DNA of 64,000 nt from Bacteroidales bacterium. Its GTDB lineage: Bacteria; Bacteroidota; Bacteroidia; Bacteroidales; JAADJA01. Positions 856 through 58,103 of this stretch are shown here, one piece after another; positions within the stretch are counted from its first letter, which is position 1; the number at the start of each line of letters is the position of its first letter. Location of the stretch: contig JAGVPB010000049.1 in the NCBI GenBank assembly GCA_020052415.1, positions 1 through 64,000 on the forward strand, read 5' to 3'. Under the pieces are notes generated by a model. That model saw nothing but the letters and a program-made list of their open reading frames with translations, was not told where the DNA came from and ran no database searches. A program made the position numbers and the translations under genes.

Positions 856-1863
856 ATGAAAAAGCAAATGGAGTGCCCGTTATGTGATGGCATGGCTGAC
901 ATCACGATCAAAAAAAACGAATTCATCCTCCGCAAAGAAAAATTCATGATCAACGAACACTTTTATAAGTGTCATAAATGTGGTGAAGAATTCACCACAA
1001 ATGAGATTGATAAATTAAACCTCAATCAGGTCTTTAATTTATATCGTGAAAAGCATAGAATCCTTTTCCCCGATCAGATTGCTTATTTGAGAAATAAATA
1101 TGGATTTTCTGCTGCTAAAATGTCCGAAATCCTTGGCTTTGGCACTAACCAGTACAGCAAATATGAAAAAGGGGAGATACCCAATGAAAGTAATGCCACC
1201 TTATTAAGCCTTATTCAGGACCCTGCTGTTTTTAAAAACCTGGTCTTGGGTAAAAAAGAACTGTTTTCCGAAACACAGTTTAACAAACTTATTGGAAATT
1301 TGAATTCACTAAAAAATTTAGAACACAGCCATTATTTAAAAAATCATTTTTGGTCTCCGTCAACTTATCCAAATCGTTTTACAGGTTTCAGAATACCTGA
1401 TTACGATAAATTTGCCAATGTATCTGTTTATTTCATCGATAAGGTGAAGCCATTTATGGTTAAATTAAATAAGCTTCTCTTTTATGCCGATTTTTATCAC
1501 TTTAAAAGAACCGGATTTTCAATAACTGGTACCCAATATCTTGCCTTTCAGCATGGCCCGGTTCCCGATAATTATGATATTTTATTCGGAATACTTTCAC
1601 AGGAAAATATTTTAGGTCAGGAATATGTTGAATTTGAATTTTCCGATGGAGCAACTCGATTTTTCAGTAATATTAAATTCAATAGCGAAATCTTCGATAA
1701 AGAAGAACTCGAAACATTAGATGAGGTTCATAAGAAATTAGGGAAAGTAAAAACAACTGATATCAAAGATTTAAGCCATGATGAAATTGGTTGGATTCAC
1801 AATCATAATGATAAGGAAATAATTAGCTATATGGAATACGCATTTTCTCTTAAAGCTATTTGA
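856..1863 (+). CDS. Antitoxin with MqsA-like zinc finger, HTH and SocA/Panacea domain
   Basis: This 335-residue protein is the predicted antitoxin and autorepressor of the toxin at 426. Residues 7-42 carry two CxxC pairs (C7/C10 and C39/C42), as in the MqsA zinc-binding domain. Residues about 74-125 form an HTH with the segment YSKYEKGE, typical of Xre/MqsA DNA-binding domains. From about residue 190, KLLFYADFYHF and AFQHGPVP are typical of the SocA/DUF4065 (Panacea) fold, which is known to neutralise many unrelated toxins. E. coli MqsA is only about 131 residues, so the C-terminal domain is an addition. The start ATG follows an A-rich stretch. The specificity for this toxin is inferred from adjacency. 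Confidence 0.8.
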   Translation: MKKQMECPLCDGMADITIKKNEFILRKEKFMINEHFYKCHKCGEEFTTNEIDKLNLNQVFNLYREKHRILFPDQIAYLRNKYGFSAAKMSEILGFGTNQYSKYEKGEIPNESNATLLSLIQDPAVFKNLVLGKKELFSETQFNKLIGNLNSLKNLEHSHYLKNHFWSPSTYPNRFTGFRIPDYDKFANVSVYFIDKVKPFMVKLNKLLFYADFYHFKRTGFSITGTQYLAFQHGPVPDNYDILFGILSQENILGQEYVEFEFSDGATRFFSNIKFNSEIFDKEELETLDEVHKKLGKVKTTDIKDLSHDEIGWIHNHNDKEIISYMEYAFSLKAI

Positions 1864-52763: not shown

Positions 52764-53531
52764 ATGAAAGCAAAAATACTATCGGCAGCATTGATCTGTC
52801 TGACTACCGGATTTTTTATTCCCTGCTCTTGTTATTCCCAGGAATGGGGTGGAACCGGGCCAATAGGTCTTTTAACTGGCTGGTCATTAAACACTAACGG
52901 GGGATTAACCTCTTACTTTGGCGATTTGAGCCTGCATGATTCCGATTTCGGAGCTAAACTTGCAAAAGAAAGTGGACCCGCAATGAGTATTATTCTATCT
53001 AAAAATATCTATAAGAATGCAATTAGTCTCTCTGGACAACTGCTTGCCGGAAAACTTGAGGGGCGGAAAGGAAACATTTCATTTACTGCTGAACTGATGG
53101 AATATAACGTGCATGCCCGCATTGATTTTGTTGACCTTTTTATGTTAAAAAGGAGCCATTCTTTTGGAATAGTGGGATATGCAGGCGTCGGACAGTTCTT
53201 GTTCGGTACGAAAAAGATAGAAATAAATGAAAGATTGGTAAAGAATTTTCAACACGATACCCGCGTTGGGGAATTTGTCTTTTTCTTTGGCGGTGGGATT
53301 TATTATAAATTAAATGCAAACCTTGGCTTAACGGCTGATCTGGCTATTCGCCAGTGCCAGAACGACCGTTTGGATGACTATGTAAAAAATGATGATTACG
53401 ATTATTATTCCTATCTCAGTGTAGGGATTAGTTATTATATCAATACGTTTAAACGGGAACCTCTTAAAAACAAAGCCCGGCTGGCAAATACCAGTTTTCT
53501 TTTCCGGTCGGCGGCTCATACTGCTCAATAG
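52764..53531 (+). CDS. Exported outer-membrane beta-barrel protein
   Basis: This 255-residue protein has a signal peptide (ILSAALICLTTGFFIPCSCYSQ) and then a beta-rich sequence like an OmpA-type eight-strand barrel: SLNTNGGLTSYFGDLSLH, ISLSGQLLAGKLEG, HSFGIVGYAGVGQFLFG, FVFFFGGGIYYKLN, LGLTADLAIRQ and YSYLSVGISYYI. The C-terminal ~25 residues are polar and basic. There is no OmpA peptidoglycan-binding domain. Two cysteines near the cleavage site could also suggest a lipoprotein signal, but the spacing is not convincing. Function unknown. Confidence 0.75.
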   Translation: MKAKILSAALICLTTGFFIPCSCYSQEWGGTGPIGLLTGWSLNTNGGLTSYFGDLSLHDSDFGAKLAKESGPAMSIILSKNIYKNAISLSGQLLAGKLEGRKGNISFTAELMEYNVHARIDFVDLFMLKRSHSFGIVGYAGVGQFLFGTKKIEINERLVKNFQHDTRVGEFVFFFGGGIYYKLNANLGLTADLAIRQCQNDRLDDYVKNDDYDYYSYLSVGISYYINTFKREPLKNKARLANTSFLFRSAAHTAQ

Positions 53532-53558: not shown

Positions 53559-53726
53559 TTAAGTCTTTTTATTGCAGAATTTCCGAAACGGCACCCCAAT
53601 TATCTGCTTCGCCGCCGAAATTATATTTCTTTCATTGTTATCTACATGTAAAGCTTTCAATTCTTCTTCGAATGATTTCCACCGGTTGCCGAGACAAACC
53701 ATTTCACAGTCTTTTTCAGGATTAGT
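53559..53726 (-). pseudogene. Decayed copy of the sucA 3' end
   Basis: The minus-strand frame reads EKDCEMVCLGNRWKSFEEEL, then KALHVDNNERNIISAAKQII. This is a clear relative of the C-terminus of sucA (54232-57081): EKDCKMVCIGNRWKSFEEEM, then KAMKVDHIESKSISALKQIK. A TAA stop at 53729-53727 lies just upstream, so nothing larger is encoded. About 12 residues after the matching end are new. It is either the remnant of a tandem duplicate of the E1 gene or a captured 3' fragment. It lies about 500 bp beyond the sucA stop, in the same orientation. Confidence 0.8.
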
Positions 53727-53762
53727 TTAGATGCCGGTTAAATAATTCCATACTGACCCACA

Positions 53763-53793
53763 TTTGGTTACACAAGGAAAATCGCTATTTTTG
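53763..53793 (+). promoter_or_regulatory. Promoter of the antitoxin gene and toxin remnant
   Basis: TTTG (53763-53766), exactly 19 bp, and TATTTTTG (53786-53793) form a full Bacteroidota-type promoter just upstream of the ATG at 53810. The predicted leader is about 10 nt. Confidence 0.65.
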
Positions 53794-53809
53794 TAACAAA
53801 TAATAAGTT

Positions 53810-54025
53810 ATGAAATCGCAGGTTTTAAAGTTTAACAACATAATCGAGACGATTTATTCGCTTCCTCTTGAGGATAAGGTGGAAATTAAAACTCTCCTGG
53901 AACACAATATTGCGGAGGCAAGGAGAGACGAGATTGAACTGAATTTCAGAAAATCAAAAGCGGAACATAAATCAGGCAAATTGAAATTTTCTTCCAGAAT
54001 AGATGAACTTAAAAAAATGCTGTAA
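53810..54025 (+). CDS. Antitoxin-like protein of a RelE/ParE-type TA pair
   Basis: This 71-residue protein opens with KFNNIIETIYSLPLEDKVEI, then KTLLEHNIAEARRDEI, and ends KLKFSSRIDELKKML. Proteins with this pattern are common in Bacteroidota directly before a RelE-like toxin and are presumed antitoxins: an N-terminal DNA-binding/dimerisation helix and a C-terminal toxin-wrapping region. The stop overlaps the next start (TAATG), a typical TA arrangement. The toxin frame that follows, 54025-54090, is only 21 codons long. The promoter is intact, so the antitoxin may still be expressed. Confidence 0.75.
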   Translation: MKSQVLKFNNIIETIYSLPLEDKVEIKTLLEHNIAEARRDEIELNFRKSKAEHKSGKLKFSSRIDELKKML

Positions 54026-54090
54026 TGGAAGTGTCATTTAGCAGTTTTTTCAAGAAAGTTGACATAGGTACTCACAATGAAGTATATTAA
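54025..54090 (+). pseudogene. RelE-like toxin reduced by internal deletion to 21 codons
   Basis: The start overlaps the antitoxin stop. The product would be MEVSFSSFFKK joined directly to VDIGTHNEVY. The first part resembles the N-terminus of RelE-like toxins paired with this antitoxin family, and the last part resembles their C-terminus (FVDIGTHxEVY). About 60-70 central residues are missing while the frame is kept. The deletion therefore removed the catalytic core, without disturbing the antitoxin. It could be chance similarity, but both ends match in the right order and position. Confidence 0.65.
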
Positions 54091-54231
54091 TTTCTAACTT
54101 TTGTAAACCTGCAATTTTATCCCCGTTGTCTTTTGTCTTCATGCCTGTAATGTCAACAAACAGGACCCCGGATCAGATTAAAATTTAAACCGGAATTTTA
54201 TTGACGTTATTTCCAAAACGATAAGTCGTGC

Positions 54232-57081
54232 TTATTTTATCTGCTTCAGTGCCGAAATAGATTTGCTCTCAATGTGATCAACCTTCATGGCTTTCATTTC
54301 TTCTTCAAACGATTTCCACCGGTTGCCGATACAAACCATTTTGCAGTCCTTTTCGAGGTTCGGACAGATACATTCTTCAAAGGTTTTTTCAATAATTTTC
54401 CTCTGCCTTACAAAATGGAATTTGCTTGAGCCGGTCGCCGGGCTTCCGCTTGCGGGGCGGGCAATAAGCTTTAACAGTACTTCATTAAATTCAAGGTGAA
54501 TGTATGGCCAGGCACCCATATTGTACGGCTCTTCCTGAACCCAAATCCAGGTCTGGGCATTCCTGTATTTCTCAATGATCTTATTGAGTTGCTTTCGCGG
54601 TAAAGGTGACAGTTGTTCTATTCTGACAACTGCAACCGATTCATTTTTTATCTTTTCCTTCTCCTCCAAAAGATCATAAAATATTTTGCCTGTGCAGAAA
54701 ACTACTTTTTCAATCTTACCAGGCTTAGCTGTTGAATCATCTAATACTTCCCTGAATTTTCCAGTGGTCAGTTCTGCGATGGGGGAAACACAAAGAGGAT
54801 GACGCAACAAACTTTTGGGAGTAAAAATGATCAGGGGCTTGCGGAAAGGCCGGTGTATCTGACGACGCAGTACATGGAAAAAATTAGCCGGGGTCGTGCA
54901 GTTAACAACCTGCATGTTCATTTCTGCACTCATCGTCAGGAAACGTTCCATTCTGGCGCTGGAGTGTTCCGGTCCCTGCCCTTCATAGCCATGCGGGAGA
55001 TACAAAACTAGGTGGTTCATTACATTCCATTTGTCTTCGGCGCTGGTGATATATTGATCAATGATGACCTGTGCAACATTATGGAAATCGCCGAACTGCG
55101 CCTCCCAAATCACAAGGTTGTTGGGTGATAGGCATGCATATCCATATTCAAATCCAAGCACGCCGTATTCCGACAGATGAGAATTGTAAACTTCAAATCG
55201 TGCCTGGTTTTCGCCAAGATTATTTAACGGAACATACTCTTCCTCCGAATCTTCAACTTTCAGGAGTGCATGACGGTGCGAAAAAGTTCCTCTTGCCGAA
55301 TCCTGCCCGCTGAGCCTTACAGGATGACCCTCATCGAGTAAAGAACCGTAAGCCAGTAACTCTCCCATCGCCCAATCAATCATCCCGGTCTTTTCGATCA
55401 TTTCACGTCTCGATTCCTGCAATCTGATAATCTTTTTGAAAAGATTTATGCCGACAGGCACTTCCGTAATTCTTCTTCCTATTTCTAAAATTTTCTTATT
55501 GGCTACGCCGGTTTCAGGAGAAACATCGAAGTCATCAGGTTTGGCTTTGCGTATATCTTTCCAGCCTTCCTGAAGGAAGGAAATATTGACTTTTTCGGTT
55601 TGCCTGGCTTCGGCAAGATTGTTCTCGAAAACTTCATTGAGATGCTTTTCGGTTTCGGTGGCCTCTTTTGCAGTAATCACTCCAATGCCAACGAGCTTTT
55701 CTTTATAAATCTGCATCGGATCGGGATGATTTTCAATGAGTTTATAAAGAAGAGGCTGGGTAAATCTGGGTTCATCCCCTTCGTTGTGGCCGTATTTCCT
55801 GTAACACAAAAGGTCAATAAATACATCGTTGTGAAATTTTTCCCTGTACTCCATTGCCAGTTGTATAGTATAACCGAGCGCTTCGACATCATCTCCGTTA
55901 ACATGAAAAACCGGTGAAAGAATGGTTTTACCAACATCGGTGCAGTATGTGCTGGTTCTGGCATCGAGGTAATTGGTCGTAAACCCTACCTGGTTATTCA
56001 CCACAAGGTGAACCGTACCGCCGGTTTTATAGCCTGCAAGCCCTGACATTTGTAAAACTTCATAAACAACTCCCTGTCCTGCGATAGAGGCATCGCCATG
56101 AATGAGTATAGGGCAAACTTTTTCAAAATCGCCCTTATATTCCCTGTCAATTTTAGCCCTTGCAATTCCCTGTACGACCGGATCAACGGCTTCGAGGTGA
56201 GAGGGATTGGGGGCCAGTGTAAGTTTGATGTTTTGACCGGTAGTTGTTTTTCTTTCCGCTACATAGCCGAGGTGATATTTTACATCACCCAGCAGGCTTT
56301 CATCTTCGTATTCCTTACCTTCAAACTCGTTGAAAATATTGTGAAAGGGCTTTTTCAGGATATTAGCCAGAACATTCAGCCGGCCACGGTGCGGCATACC
56401 GATCACGAATTCTTTTGCTCCCAGAATTGCACCTTTTTCAATAATGGTATCAAGAGCAGGGATCATTGCTTCAGCGCCTTCGAGTGAAAAGCGTTTCTGA
56501 CCCGGAAATTTTTTATGAATGAACTTCTCAAACAAAACCGCCCTGCTAAGATGCCTGAAAATATATTTTTTCTCTTCCTGGCTAAAGGGATAAATGTTTT
56601 TTGATCCTTCCATTTTCGATTTCATCCACGAAAGAATTTCAGGTTGGCGGATATATAAAAATTCAACACCGACTGATGCGCAATAGGTTTCTTCCAAGTG
56701 GGAAATAATGTTTTTTAGTATTGTCTTTCCCAATCCAATTTCATTTCCGGCCTGAAATTCTTTTTCAAGGTCATCTTTCGTTAACCCGAAATTTTCAATG
56801 GCCAATGTAGGTGTGTATGTTCTCCGGGTTCGTACCGGATTTGTTTTGGTGAATAAATGTCCCCGCTGCCTGTAACCGTTAATAAGGTTTATGACTTTAA
56901 ATTCCGATGGATAGAGTTCGGCTTTTTCTGAACTCTTTGAAAAATCAGTTCTGGCAAATTCGAAACCCTCAAAGAACTTTTTCATGCTCTCCTCCACCGA
57001 ATCCGGATCTTTTTTATAACTTTTATAAAACTGGTCAATTAAATCCGGATCAGCACCATTCAACCAGGAAAATTTATCCAT
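54232..57081 (-). CDS. sucA: 2-oxoglutarate dehydrogenase E1 component
   Basis: This 949-residue thiamine-dependent enzyme decarboxylates 2-oxoglutarate and transfers the succinyl group to lipoyl-E2. FSWLNGADPDLIDQFYKSY is the N-terminal E2-binding segment. IGMPHRGRLNVLANI, GDASIAGQGVVYE, VNNQVGFTT and the C-terminal domain with HGYEGQGPEHSSARMERFL and QEEPYNMGAW are present. The ATG at 57081 gives the conserved opening; an upstream start at 57141 is not supported. No sucB (E2) is adjacent, which differs from many bacteria. A decayed copy of its 3' end lies at 53559-53726. It forms a second 2-oxoglutarate oxidation route beside KorAB. Confidence 0.94.
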   Translation of the reverse strand: MDKFSWLNGADPDLIDQFYKSYKKDPDSVEESMKKFFEGFEFARTDFSKSSEKAELYPSEFKVINLINGYRQRGHLFTKTNPVRTRRTYTPTLAIENFGLTKDDLEKEFQAGNEIGLGKTILKNIISHLEETYCASVGVEFLYIRQPEILSWMKSKMEGSKNIYPFSQEEKKYIFRHLSRAVLFEKFIHKKFPGQKRFSLEGAEAMIPALDTIIEKGAILGAKEFVIGMPHRGRLNVLANILKKPFHNIFNEFEGKEYEDESLLGDVKYHLGYVAERKTTTGQNIKLTLAPNPSHLEAVDPVVQGIARAKIDREYKGDFEKVCPILIHGDASIAGQGVVYEVLQMSGLAGYKTGGTVHLVVNNQVGFTTNYLDARTSTYCTDVGKTILSPVFHVNGDDVEALGYTIQLAMEYREKFHNDVFIDLLCYRKYGHNEGDEPRFTQPLLYKLIENHPDPMQIYKEKLVGIGVITAKEATETEKHLNEVFENNLAEARQTEKVNISFLQEGWKDIRKAKPDDFDVSPETGVANKKILEIGRRITEVPVGINLFKKIIRLQESRREMIEKTGMIDWAMGELLAYGSLLDEGHPVRLSGQDSARGTFSHRHALLKVEDSEEEYVPLNNLGENQARFEVYNSHLSEYGVLGFEYGYACLSPNNLVIWEAQFGDFHNVAQVIIDQYITSAEDKWNVMNHLVLYLPHGYEGQGPEHSSARMERFLTMSAEMNMQVVNCTTPANFFHVLRRQIHRPFRKPLIIFTPKSLLRHPLCVSPIAELTTGKFREVLDDSTAKPGKIEKVVFCTGKIFYDLLEEKEKIKNESVAVVRIEQLSPLPRKQLNKIIEKYRNAQTWIWVQEEPYNMGAWPYIHLEFNEVLLKLIARPASGSPATGSSKFHFVRQRKIIEKTFEECICPNLEKDCKMVCIGNRWKSFEEEMKAMKVDHIESKSISALKQIK

Positions 57082-57263
57082 AATATGCCTGTTAAATAAA
57101 GGAATGCAAAAATAGTATATAATAAACAATTGTATTCCCACAAATAAAGGTAAAACCCGGAGAAATGTTCACCCTGTATGATGATTTGGAAAATTAAAAT
57201 GCTAAAGTTCTTTTAAATATTTTAGATACAAGGAATTTTAAAATGCGTGTATCTATGCGATGG

Positions 57264-58103
57264 TTATTTCTTTTCCCGCTTTACCAGTTCCTTCTTTTTC
57301 TTTGTTTCCGGTAAATAATTGTCTTCTGAAACAATTTTATTACCTGTTTTTAATTCCAATGCTTTTCTTGCGTCACCGGCAATTGTCCCACCTTGTTTAG
57401 CAACAGTTTTATTTTGTACAAATCCCCTGGGATTTTTTGTTTTCACAATAGCCGATGTTGATGCTTCACCCAACATCGAAAAAATCAATTCAAGGTCATT
57501 CATGTGATCCCGAAGGTTCTGGCTTTTCAATCCTTTGACTTTCTTATATTCAGAAGGGGTCAAACCAAAGGTTGCTTTTGAGATTTCTGCAGTAAGAATT
57601 GCATATTCAATTTGTTCCTTTACACCCCTGTTTTTCCATTCTTCAGTTAGTTCTTCACGAATGGCTATGCTTCGCATCCGTTTTTCAATCCAGTCATCAG
57701 GATAACCTTTCAACTTGTAGAATTCCCTTGTCCGCTGAGTTGCTAATTCCGGATTTTCAATTTCTTCGAGACGATCAGAACCCACTTTTGCCAACCATAT
57801 TTTAAAAGGCTCGGCTTTGGGTGATGGAATGGATTGAATAATTCTTAAAAGTCCTTTTGTGTCCGCTGCTTGAACTTTTCGTTTTTTACCATCAGCTGCT
57901 TTCATTTCTACCAGGGTACAAATTGTACCCCAGTTGCTTTTTAGCATTTCATCCCGACTTAATATTCTCTTTATGTATTGTTTAACATCGGAACTATCTG
58001 TTAGAATTTCAACTACATCCTGAACTGAAAAATACCATTTTCCCTCTGTTTCATTCCAAACCGTCCTTATTTTCTTACTTTCAAATAGTTTAATATTGCT
58101 CAT
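57264..58103 (-). CDS. BRO-N domain protein (phage antirepressor-like)
   Basis: This 279-residue protein opens LFESKKIRTVWNETEGKWYFSVQDVVEIL, cut here only for pattern: the key parts are IRTVW, KWYFSVQDVV and the later TKGLLRIIQSIPSPKAEPFK, which identify the BRO-N domain. The second half (WIEKRMRSIAIREELTEEW, ILTAEISKATFGLTPSEY, LRDHMNDLELIFSMLGEAS) resembles DinD-like/BRO-C sequences of bacterial chromosomal homologues. The C-terminus is Lys-rich. BRO-N proteins bind DNA; many are phage-derived. No other phage gene is adjacent, so it may be a domesticated gene. Its exact role is unknown. Confidence 0.85.
   Translation of the reverse strand: MSNIKLFESKKIRTVWNETEGKWYFSVQDVVEILTDSSDVKQYIKRILSRDEMLKSNWGTICTLVEMKAADGKKRKVQAADTKGLLRIIQSIPSPKAEPFKIWLAKVGSDRLEEIENPELATQRTREFYKLKGYPDDWIEKRMRSIAIREELTEEWKNRGVKEQIEYAILTAEISKATFGLTPSEYKKVKGLKSQNLRDHMNDLELIFSMLGEASTSAIVKTKNPRGFVQNKTVAKQGGTIAGDARKALELKTGNKIVSEDNYLPETKKKKELVKREKK

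Follow-up and report, generated by a model that had tools for sequence, protein, structure and literature searches.

Probable decay of a chromosomal toxin-antitoxin pair in a Bacteroidales genome, with an intact antitoxin and a 21-codon toxin remnant

An intact antitoxin gene is followed by a 21-codon toxin remnant

Within the 64,000-nucleotide stretch of Bacteroidales DNA analysed here (the window), which belongs to a 4.67-Mb draft assembly of 94 contigs that is 97.4% complete, we find a two-gene locus in which a complete antitoxin frame, its protein beginning MKSQVLKFNNIIETIYSLPLEDKVEIK, runs directly into a reading frame of 21 codons (Table 1). The antitoxin stop and the start of this second frame share one base, within TAATG. 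Upstream of the antitoxin lies TATTTTTG, which has the form TAnnTTTG and which we take to be a Bacteroidota-type -7 element; a TTTG further upstream is a candidate -33-like element. In all eight loci examined for this feature out of the 26 described below (the window, L003, L005, L031 and L038-L041), TAnnTTTG starts 20-25 bases 5′ of the antitoxin start (a raw count). At the level of the open reading frames, the TAATG overlap and the -7 element, the locus is as the preliminary description had it: a toxin-antitoxin pair with antitoxin and promoter intact and the toxin down to 21 codons.

Table 1. Features of the window and toxin lesions at related loci, each in the coordinates of its own locus
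Locus	Feature	Coordinates	Strand	Basis or remark
Window	Candidate upstream (-33-like) promoter element, TTTG	53763-53766	+	Read from the sequence; 19 bases ahead of the -7 element
Window	Putative Bacteroidota-type -7 element (TAnnTTTG)	53786-53793	+	Starts 24 bases 5′ of the antitoxin start
Window	Undamaged antitoxin frame of 71 aa, modelled as all-helical	53810-54025	+	ORF; AlphaFold2 model
Window	Remnant toxin frame, 21 aa, MEVSFSSFFKKVDIGTHNEVY; first 11 residues match a RelE/YafQ-like toxin at its N-terminus, last 10 at its C-terminus	54025-54090	+	Alignment and profiles
Window	Putative in-frame deletion junction	54057-54058	+	Alignment with 14 intact homologues; about 200 bp lost, 204 bp relative to the 89-aa L031 toxin
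Window	Relic of the 3′ part of sucA plus the sequence downstream of it (flanking, outside the pair)	53567-53732	-	Local alignment; tblastn
Window	sucA, 2-oxoglutarate dehydrogenase E1, convergent with the pair (flanking)	54232-57141	-	ORF; named by eye
L005	Toxin with a single internal stop, TAG			
L022	Second toxin relic; both ends present, unrelated sequence in the middle, ends not joined in one frame	1171-1475		
L032	Toxin of which only a few start codons remain			By eye
L036	Toxin truncated and frameshifted			
L041	Toxin with about 17-30 N-terminal residues left			

The remnant matches both ends of a RelE/YafQ-like toxin

The remnant aligns to both termini of all 14 intact homologues (87-93 residues long), relative to which it is missing 66-72 residues (68 when compared with the 89-aa toxin of L031). 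From the first 11 and the last 10 residues of these homologues, leaving the window sequence out, we built one profile for each end and scored the stop-free segments of the six-frame translation of the window. The remnant was the top-scoring segment for both ends, with 27.8 bits among 74,458 segments for the N-end profile (runner-up, 13.0) and 35.2 bits among 77,857 segments for the C-end profile (runner-up, 14.0). When the six-frame translations were shuffled 30 times, the best scores were 18.1 bits for the N end and 18.6 bits for the C end, both below the remnant, and the 14 members from which the profiles were built themselves score 18.9-31.7 and 26.0-38.4 bits, respectively. Because both profiles coincide in one 21-codon frame, directly after an antitoxin that has relatives with toxins of this type as partners, chance is no serious explanation for these sequence matches. 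The preliminary description had read the frame as 11 N-terminal and 10 C-terminal family-like residues around a deleted middle, and had named alignment to full pairs as the check; profile scores and alignment bear this reading out, with both end segments present in 14 of 14 full-length homologues.

The intact homologues are related to the RelE/YafQ/YoeB superfamily in both structure and sequence. In the model of the L031 toxin (pLDDT 91.7), a strand (residues 2-5) is followed by two helices (7-16 and 23-35) and three further strands (55-58, 63-69 and 76-84), and the chain closes with a short helix at the C-terminus. This is the same fold as in toxins of this superfamily; among solved structures the model matches the YoeB/ParE toxin 6n90, HP0894, YafQ and YoeB (Foldseek E 1.7e-06 to 6.7e-06). 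By sequence, the toxin profile matches Helicobacter pylori HP0892 and HP0894 as well as YoeB, and the C-terminal His motif of the family aligns with that of HP0892. All 14 intact relatives match TIGR00053 (YafQ) at E ≤ 0.001, and the two for which scores were compared with its curated cut-off of 87.25 bits fall under it (23.0 for L031, 35.0 for L004). Matches to TIGR02385 (RelE/StbE) at E ≤ 0.001 were found for 12 of the 14, with L004 above the cut-off of 27.9 (34.9) and L031 slightly below it (26.9). The homologues thus have what marks an ancestral pair of the RelE/YafQ superfamily, a RelE-fold toxin of about 80-95 aa encoded second in the operon, and the window holds a remnant of one. As in the E. 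coli DinJ-YafQ and H. pylori HP0892/HP0894 pairs, the antitoxin comes first and stop and start overlap; unlike in pairs of that superfamily, the window toxin is only 21 codons long.

The invariant C-terminal His and Tyr (H85 and Y89 in L031 numbering) are kept in the remnant. Residues 12-79 are lost, including the invariant P37, T44, H45, L47, G49, L51, R64 and F67, so that the window copy is no functional pair of the superfamily if this is taken to mean a complete toxin with its conserved residues. Placed on the L031 model, the remnant would retain strand 1 and helix 1 up to its midpoint and, from the other end of the toxin, the close of the last strand plus the C-terminal tip that carries the His motif, with helix 2 and the middle strands gone. 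Given the absence of helix 2 and these strands, the peptide is presumably incapable of RNase activity. The C-terminal His is named as a key catalytic residue of YafQ, HP0892 and HP0894 in PMC7584586.

For the antitoxin, the AlphaFold2 model (mean pLDDT 87.5, pTM 0.55) has helices at residues 8-16, 20-55 and 64-70 and no strand, and hence predicts no ribbon-helix-helix. The antitoxin matches no fold in the PDB at E ≤ 0.001 and reaches the cut-off of none of the Pfam and NCBIfam models; the best sub-threshold antitoxin match, the VapB15 antitoxin model (E 0.0024, 18 of 80 bits), was rejected. Homology and models point to an ancestral toxin of about 89 residues, belonging to the RelE/YafQ superfamily, with an all-helical antitoxin of 71 residues as its partner.

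The toxin is damaged or absent at ten of 25 antitoxin loci

Our searches for related loci started from the antitoxin and took no account of whether a toxin was present or intact. They comprised the 99 nearest genomes (E 0.01), 395 genomes of the phylum (1e-4), 393 of the order (1e-4) and 395 of the class (1e-7), with the own genome in each of these partly overlapping sets, and one scan of genome contigs (E limit 1e-3). The antitoxin family is rare, with matches in 3 of the 99 nearest genomes, 9 of 393 in the order, 9 of 395 in the phylum and 7 of 395 in the class, the own genome counted each time. Distinct antitoxin loci number 26, window included; L002 was left out (31% identity, internal stops, E 0.6), and L029 stops at a contig edge, which leaves 25 assessable loci.

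A full open toxin is present at 15 of these 25 loci (L004, L020, L021, L023, L024, L026, L027, L028, L031, L033, L038, L039, L040, L042 and L043) and missing at the other ten (the window, L003, L005, L022, L025, L032, L034, L035, L036 and L041). Behind the antitoxins of L003, L025, L034 and L035 no toxin was found, and five further loci carry the lesions listed in Table 1. That of L022 resembles the window state. The same 21-codon remnant was seen at none of the other loci found, and no strain or species with the identical deletion came to light among them. In a tree of the 25 antitoxins, good support is limited to 3 of the 22 inner branches, too little to count independent losses; parsimony on this tree gives six changes of toxin state, compared with a mean of 8.1 for shuffled labels, of which 47 of 500 were as low. 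Where traces of the toxin are left, the variety of lesions is a better argument for separate losses than the tree.

The antitoxin itself is open, and alignable over at least residues 8-62, at seven of the ten toxin-less loci (the window, L003, L005, L022, L025, L035 and L041). At the remaining three it is damaged, with a frameshift in L034 and no alignable N-terminal part in L032 or L036. Directly behind the orphan antitoxin of L003 (genome G055, positions 1130-1340 of that locus), we read by eye an array of repeats of about 21 bp that are GGTTAACTACAGTTTTCGCGC-like.

Across the 28 pairs formed by eight antitoxins, pN ranges from 0.10 to 0.41 and pS from 0.67 to 0.99, and at such pS values pairwise dN/dS decides nothing as a test of selection. 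Synonymous sites are saturated, with infinite dS, in 25 of the 28 pairs. The other three have dS of 1.65-3.10 and dN/dS of 0.14-0.15, values to which divergence from before toxin loss may contribute; they include L003 and L005, both without a working toxin, whose dN/dS is 0.14. As judged from these sequences, the antitoxin family is constrained over the long term, a signal that carries no information on the time since toxin loss.

The pair has probably lost its toxin first

We consider it likely that the window locus is an ordinary decaying type II toxin-antitoxin pair of the chromosome, in which the toxin was lost first. A toxin can be lost safely while its antitoxin works, and the antitoxin only afterwards. 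In the window, as the alignment shows, an in-frame deletion of about 200 bp has taken out everything after residue 11 up to the last 10 residues. The toxin would go first because losing the antitoxin beside a working toxin harms the cell and losing the toxin is harmless; once the toxin is gone, the antitoxin would be free to decay. Since the toxin must be lost first, antitoxin and promoter would still be present, and since it is lost only while the antitoxin works, a snapshot of decaying pairs should mostly catch them with the toxin broken and the antitoxin whole. The damaged antitoxins of L034, L032 and L036 are what would be expected if antitoxin decay comes after toxin loss. An undecayed antitoxin together with two remnant ends near consensus suggests that the deletion in the window is recent, and with its promoter and open frame the antitoxin is probably still made.

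Several observations sit less easily with decay. The seven open antitoxins among ten toxin-less loci could also mean that selection keeps the antitoxin, and the low dN/dS of the three unsaturated pairs, L003-L005 among them, counts on the same side. Furthermore, the deletion has kept the reading frame and the 21 codons remain open, an outcome that chance would give in about one case in three.

Decayed pairs and orphan antitoxins are already known in print. PMC7167474 and PMC2654758 describe chromosomal pairs decaying through deletion or nonsense mutation. For Klebsiella pneumoniae, PMC7192599 gives 2253 occurrences of orphan antitoxins in 105 of 233 groups, 8% of them without a coding sequence of more than 50 aa in the toxin position and some belonging to groups shown to be inhibitory. 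The window locus is like these in having an antitoxin gene without a functional toxin; unlike them, it belongs to a different family and phylum, and its lesion is described at one locus. The toxin of ccd targets gyrase. The ccdO157 pair of E. coli, described in PMC2654758 as degenerating within the species, is likewise a decaying chromosomal pair, of another toxin family. Our literature search returned no paper on a solitary antitoxin or a truncated toxin in Bacteroidetes.

If decay is the right reading, this family of loci pictures the disarming of an addiction module, in which the toxin goes before the antitoxin; its ten toxin-less loci show about six kinds of lesion, and the frequency of toxin loss within one antitoxin family is of some interest.

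Functional readings and an assembly error are improbable

The preliminary description had gone beyond anatomy and offered two functions for what remains, an anti-addiction state and an antitoxin-binding peptide. Its anatomical reading stands; neither function gains support from our data, and because decay is expected to take the toxin before the antitoxin, no function is needed.

The first of these, by analogy with ccd of Erwinia chrysanthemi, is that selection might keep the antitoxin to neutralise related toxins arriving on mobile elements. The undamaged antitoxin and promoter, the open antitoxins at most toxin-less loci and the dN/dS of the orphans L003 and L005 would fit this idea, and a chromosomal ccd, its toxin present, is reported to act in this way in PMC2654758. 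We nevertheless regard it as unlikely, on several grounds. First, the toxin profile has no match at E ≤ 0.01 in the host assembly, near-complete as this is; in the genus, 8 of 17 genomes have matches, of which the sole strong one (E 2.2e-35) is the toxin of L004 in G003, one of the sequences that make up the profile. Second, antitoxin relatives are absent from 72,556 plasmid records at E ≤ 1 and from viral contigs, in which 94 pattern matches to the family contained no real relative. Third, relatives of the L031 toxin are absent from 50,697 phage records, and those in plasmids are three distant copies, all cyanobacterial and 38-39% identical; that two of the three lie on plasmids predicted to be conjugative is a point in favour of this reading. 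Finally, the antitoxin family is rare among the genomes searched.

A broader form of the same idea would have the toxin lost repeatedly in a rare Bacteroidota antitoxin family, with promoter and antitoxin kept for a use of their own, most likely protection against related toxins, and the 21-mer a by-product. We find this unlikely as well. Should the orphan antitoxins prove to stay under selection, their family would offer a natural setting in which to test anti-addiction.

It is quite improbable that the full-length toxin is real and that the assembler joined across it. The assembly is a draft in 94 contigs, and in L005 an 8-base repeat, AAAAAAGC, of a type prone to slips, lies near both borders. 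A join on AAAAAAGC would, however, leave A-V-F ahead of VDIG, which is absent from the remnant, a comparison made on the DNA of L005, and nine other loci carry other toxin lesions.

That the 21-residue peptide might still bind the antitoxin, tuning antitoxin stability or promoter repression, is hardly credible, even though its frame is open, overlaps the antitoxin stop and has ends near consensus. Most of the toxin fold is gone, including, by the positions in the L031 model, helix 2 and the strands in the middle, and with a strandless antitoxin model that matches nothing in the PDB, autoregulation is itself hypothetical. In TfiT, a YafQ-family toxin, deletion of the C-terminal HSELFKK left antitoxin binding in place according to PMC7584586, so the retained C-terminal end would not be expected to determine binding. 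The recurrence of this remnant at other loci, which might have spoken for a function, is not seen among those found. A new toxin partner downstream of the antitoxin was rejected, as the next gene is sucA, on the opposite strand and about 140 bp away.

The pair lies between sucA and a relic of its 3′ end

Local alignment of 53567-53732 with 54196-54369 gives a score of 150, where 200 shuffles reached 35 at most. SucA's 3′ end and its downstream flank are thus present twice, one copy being a diverged relic, and the toxin-antitoxin pair sits between the copies. Of 13 sucA genes compared, that of the host itself is closest to the relic (tblastn, 71% over 41 codons). In the genus, 13 of 17 genomes match the C-terminal part of sucA; one of the 13 is the own genome, and the other 12 have one match each. 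At all 12 genus loci read (L007-L018), a frame that by eye encodes a sucB-like lipoyl E2 follows sucA, starting 14-628 bp behind it. In the window genome, the nearest sucB homologue (76%) is on a different contig, C46, so that sucA is split from sucB; the 1.5 kb ahead of this homologue contain no recognisable piece of sucA. In one relative, a different toxin-antitoxin-like pair, by eye a small protein and a PIN-like toxin, lies between sucA and sucB (L014, positions 1335-1968). The sucA relic and the split of sucA from sucB indicate that the site has been rearranged here, and, with the L014 pair included, two species of the genus have toxin-antitoxin genes next to sucA. Both findings would agree with the pair being mobile and dispensable in origin.

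Two further frames lie near the locus. A 279-aa frame on the reverse strand (57264-58103), which by eye has a BRO-N/antirepressor-type look, adjoins sucA. At 52764-53531 there is a possible outer-membrane beta-barrel gene (Pfam OMP_b-brl, under cut-off), whose paralogous family is large, with nine matches in the own genome and, at E ≤ 0.001, members in every one of the 17 genus genomes.
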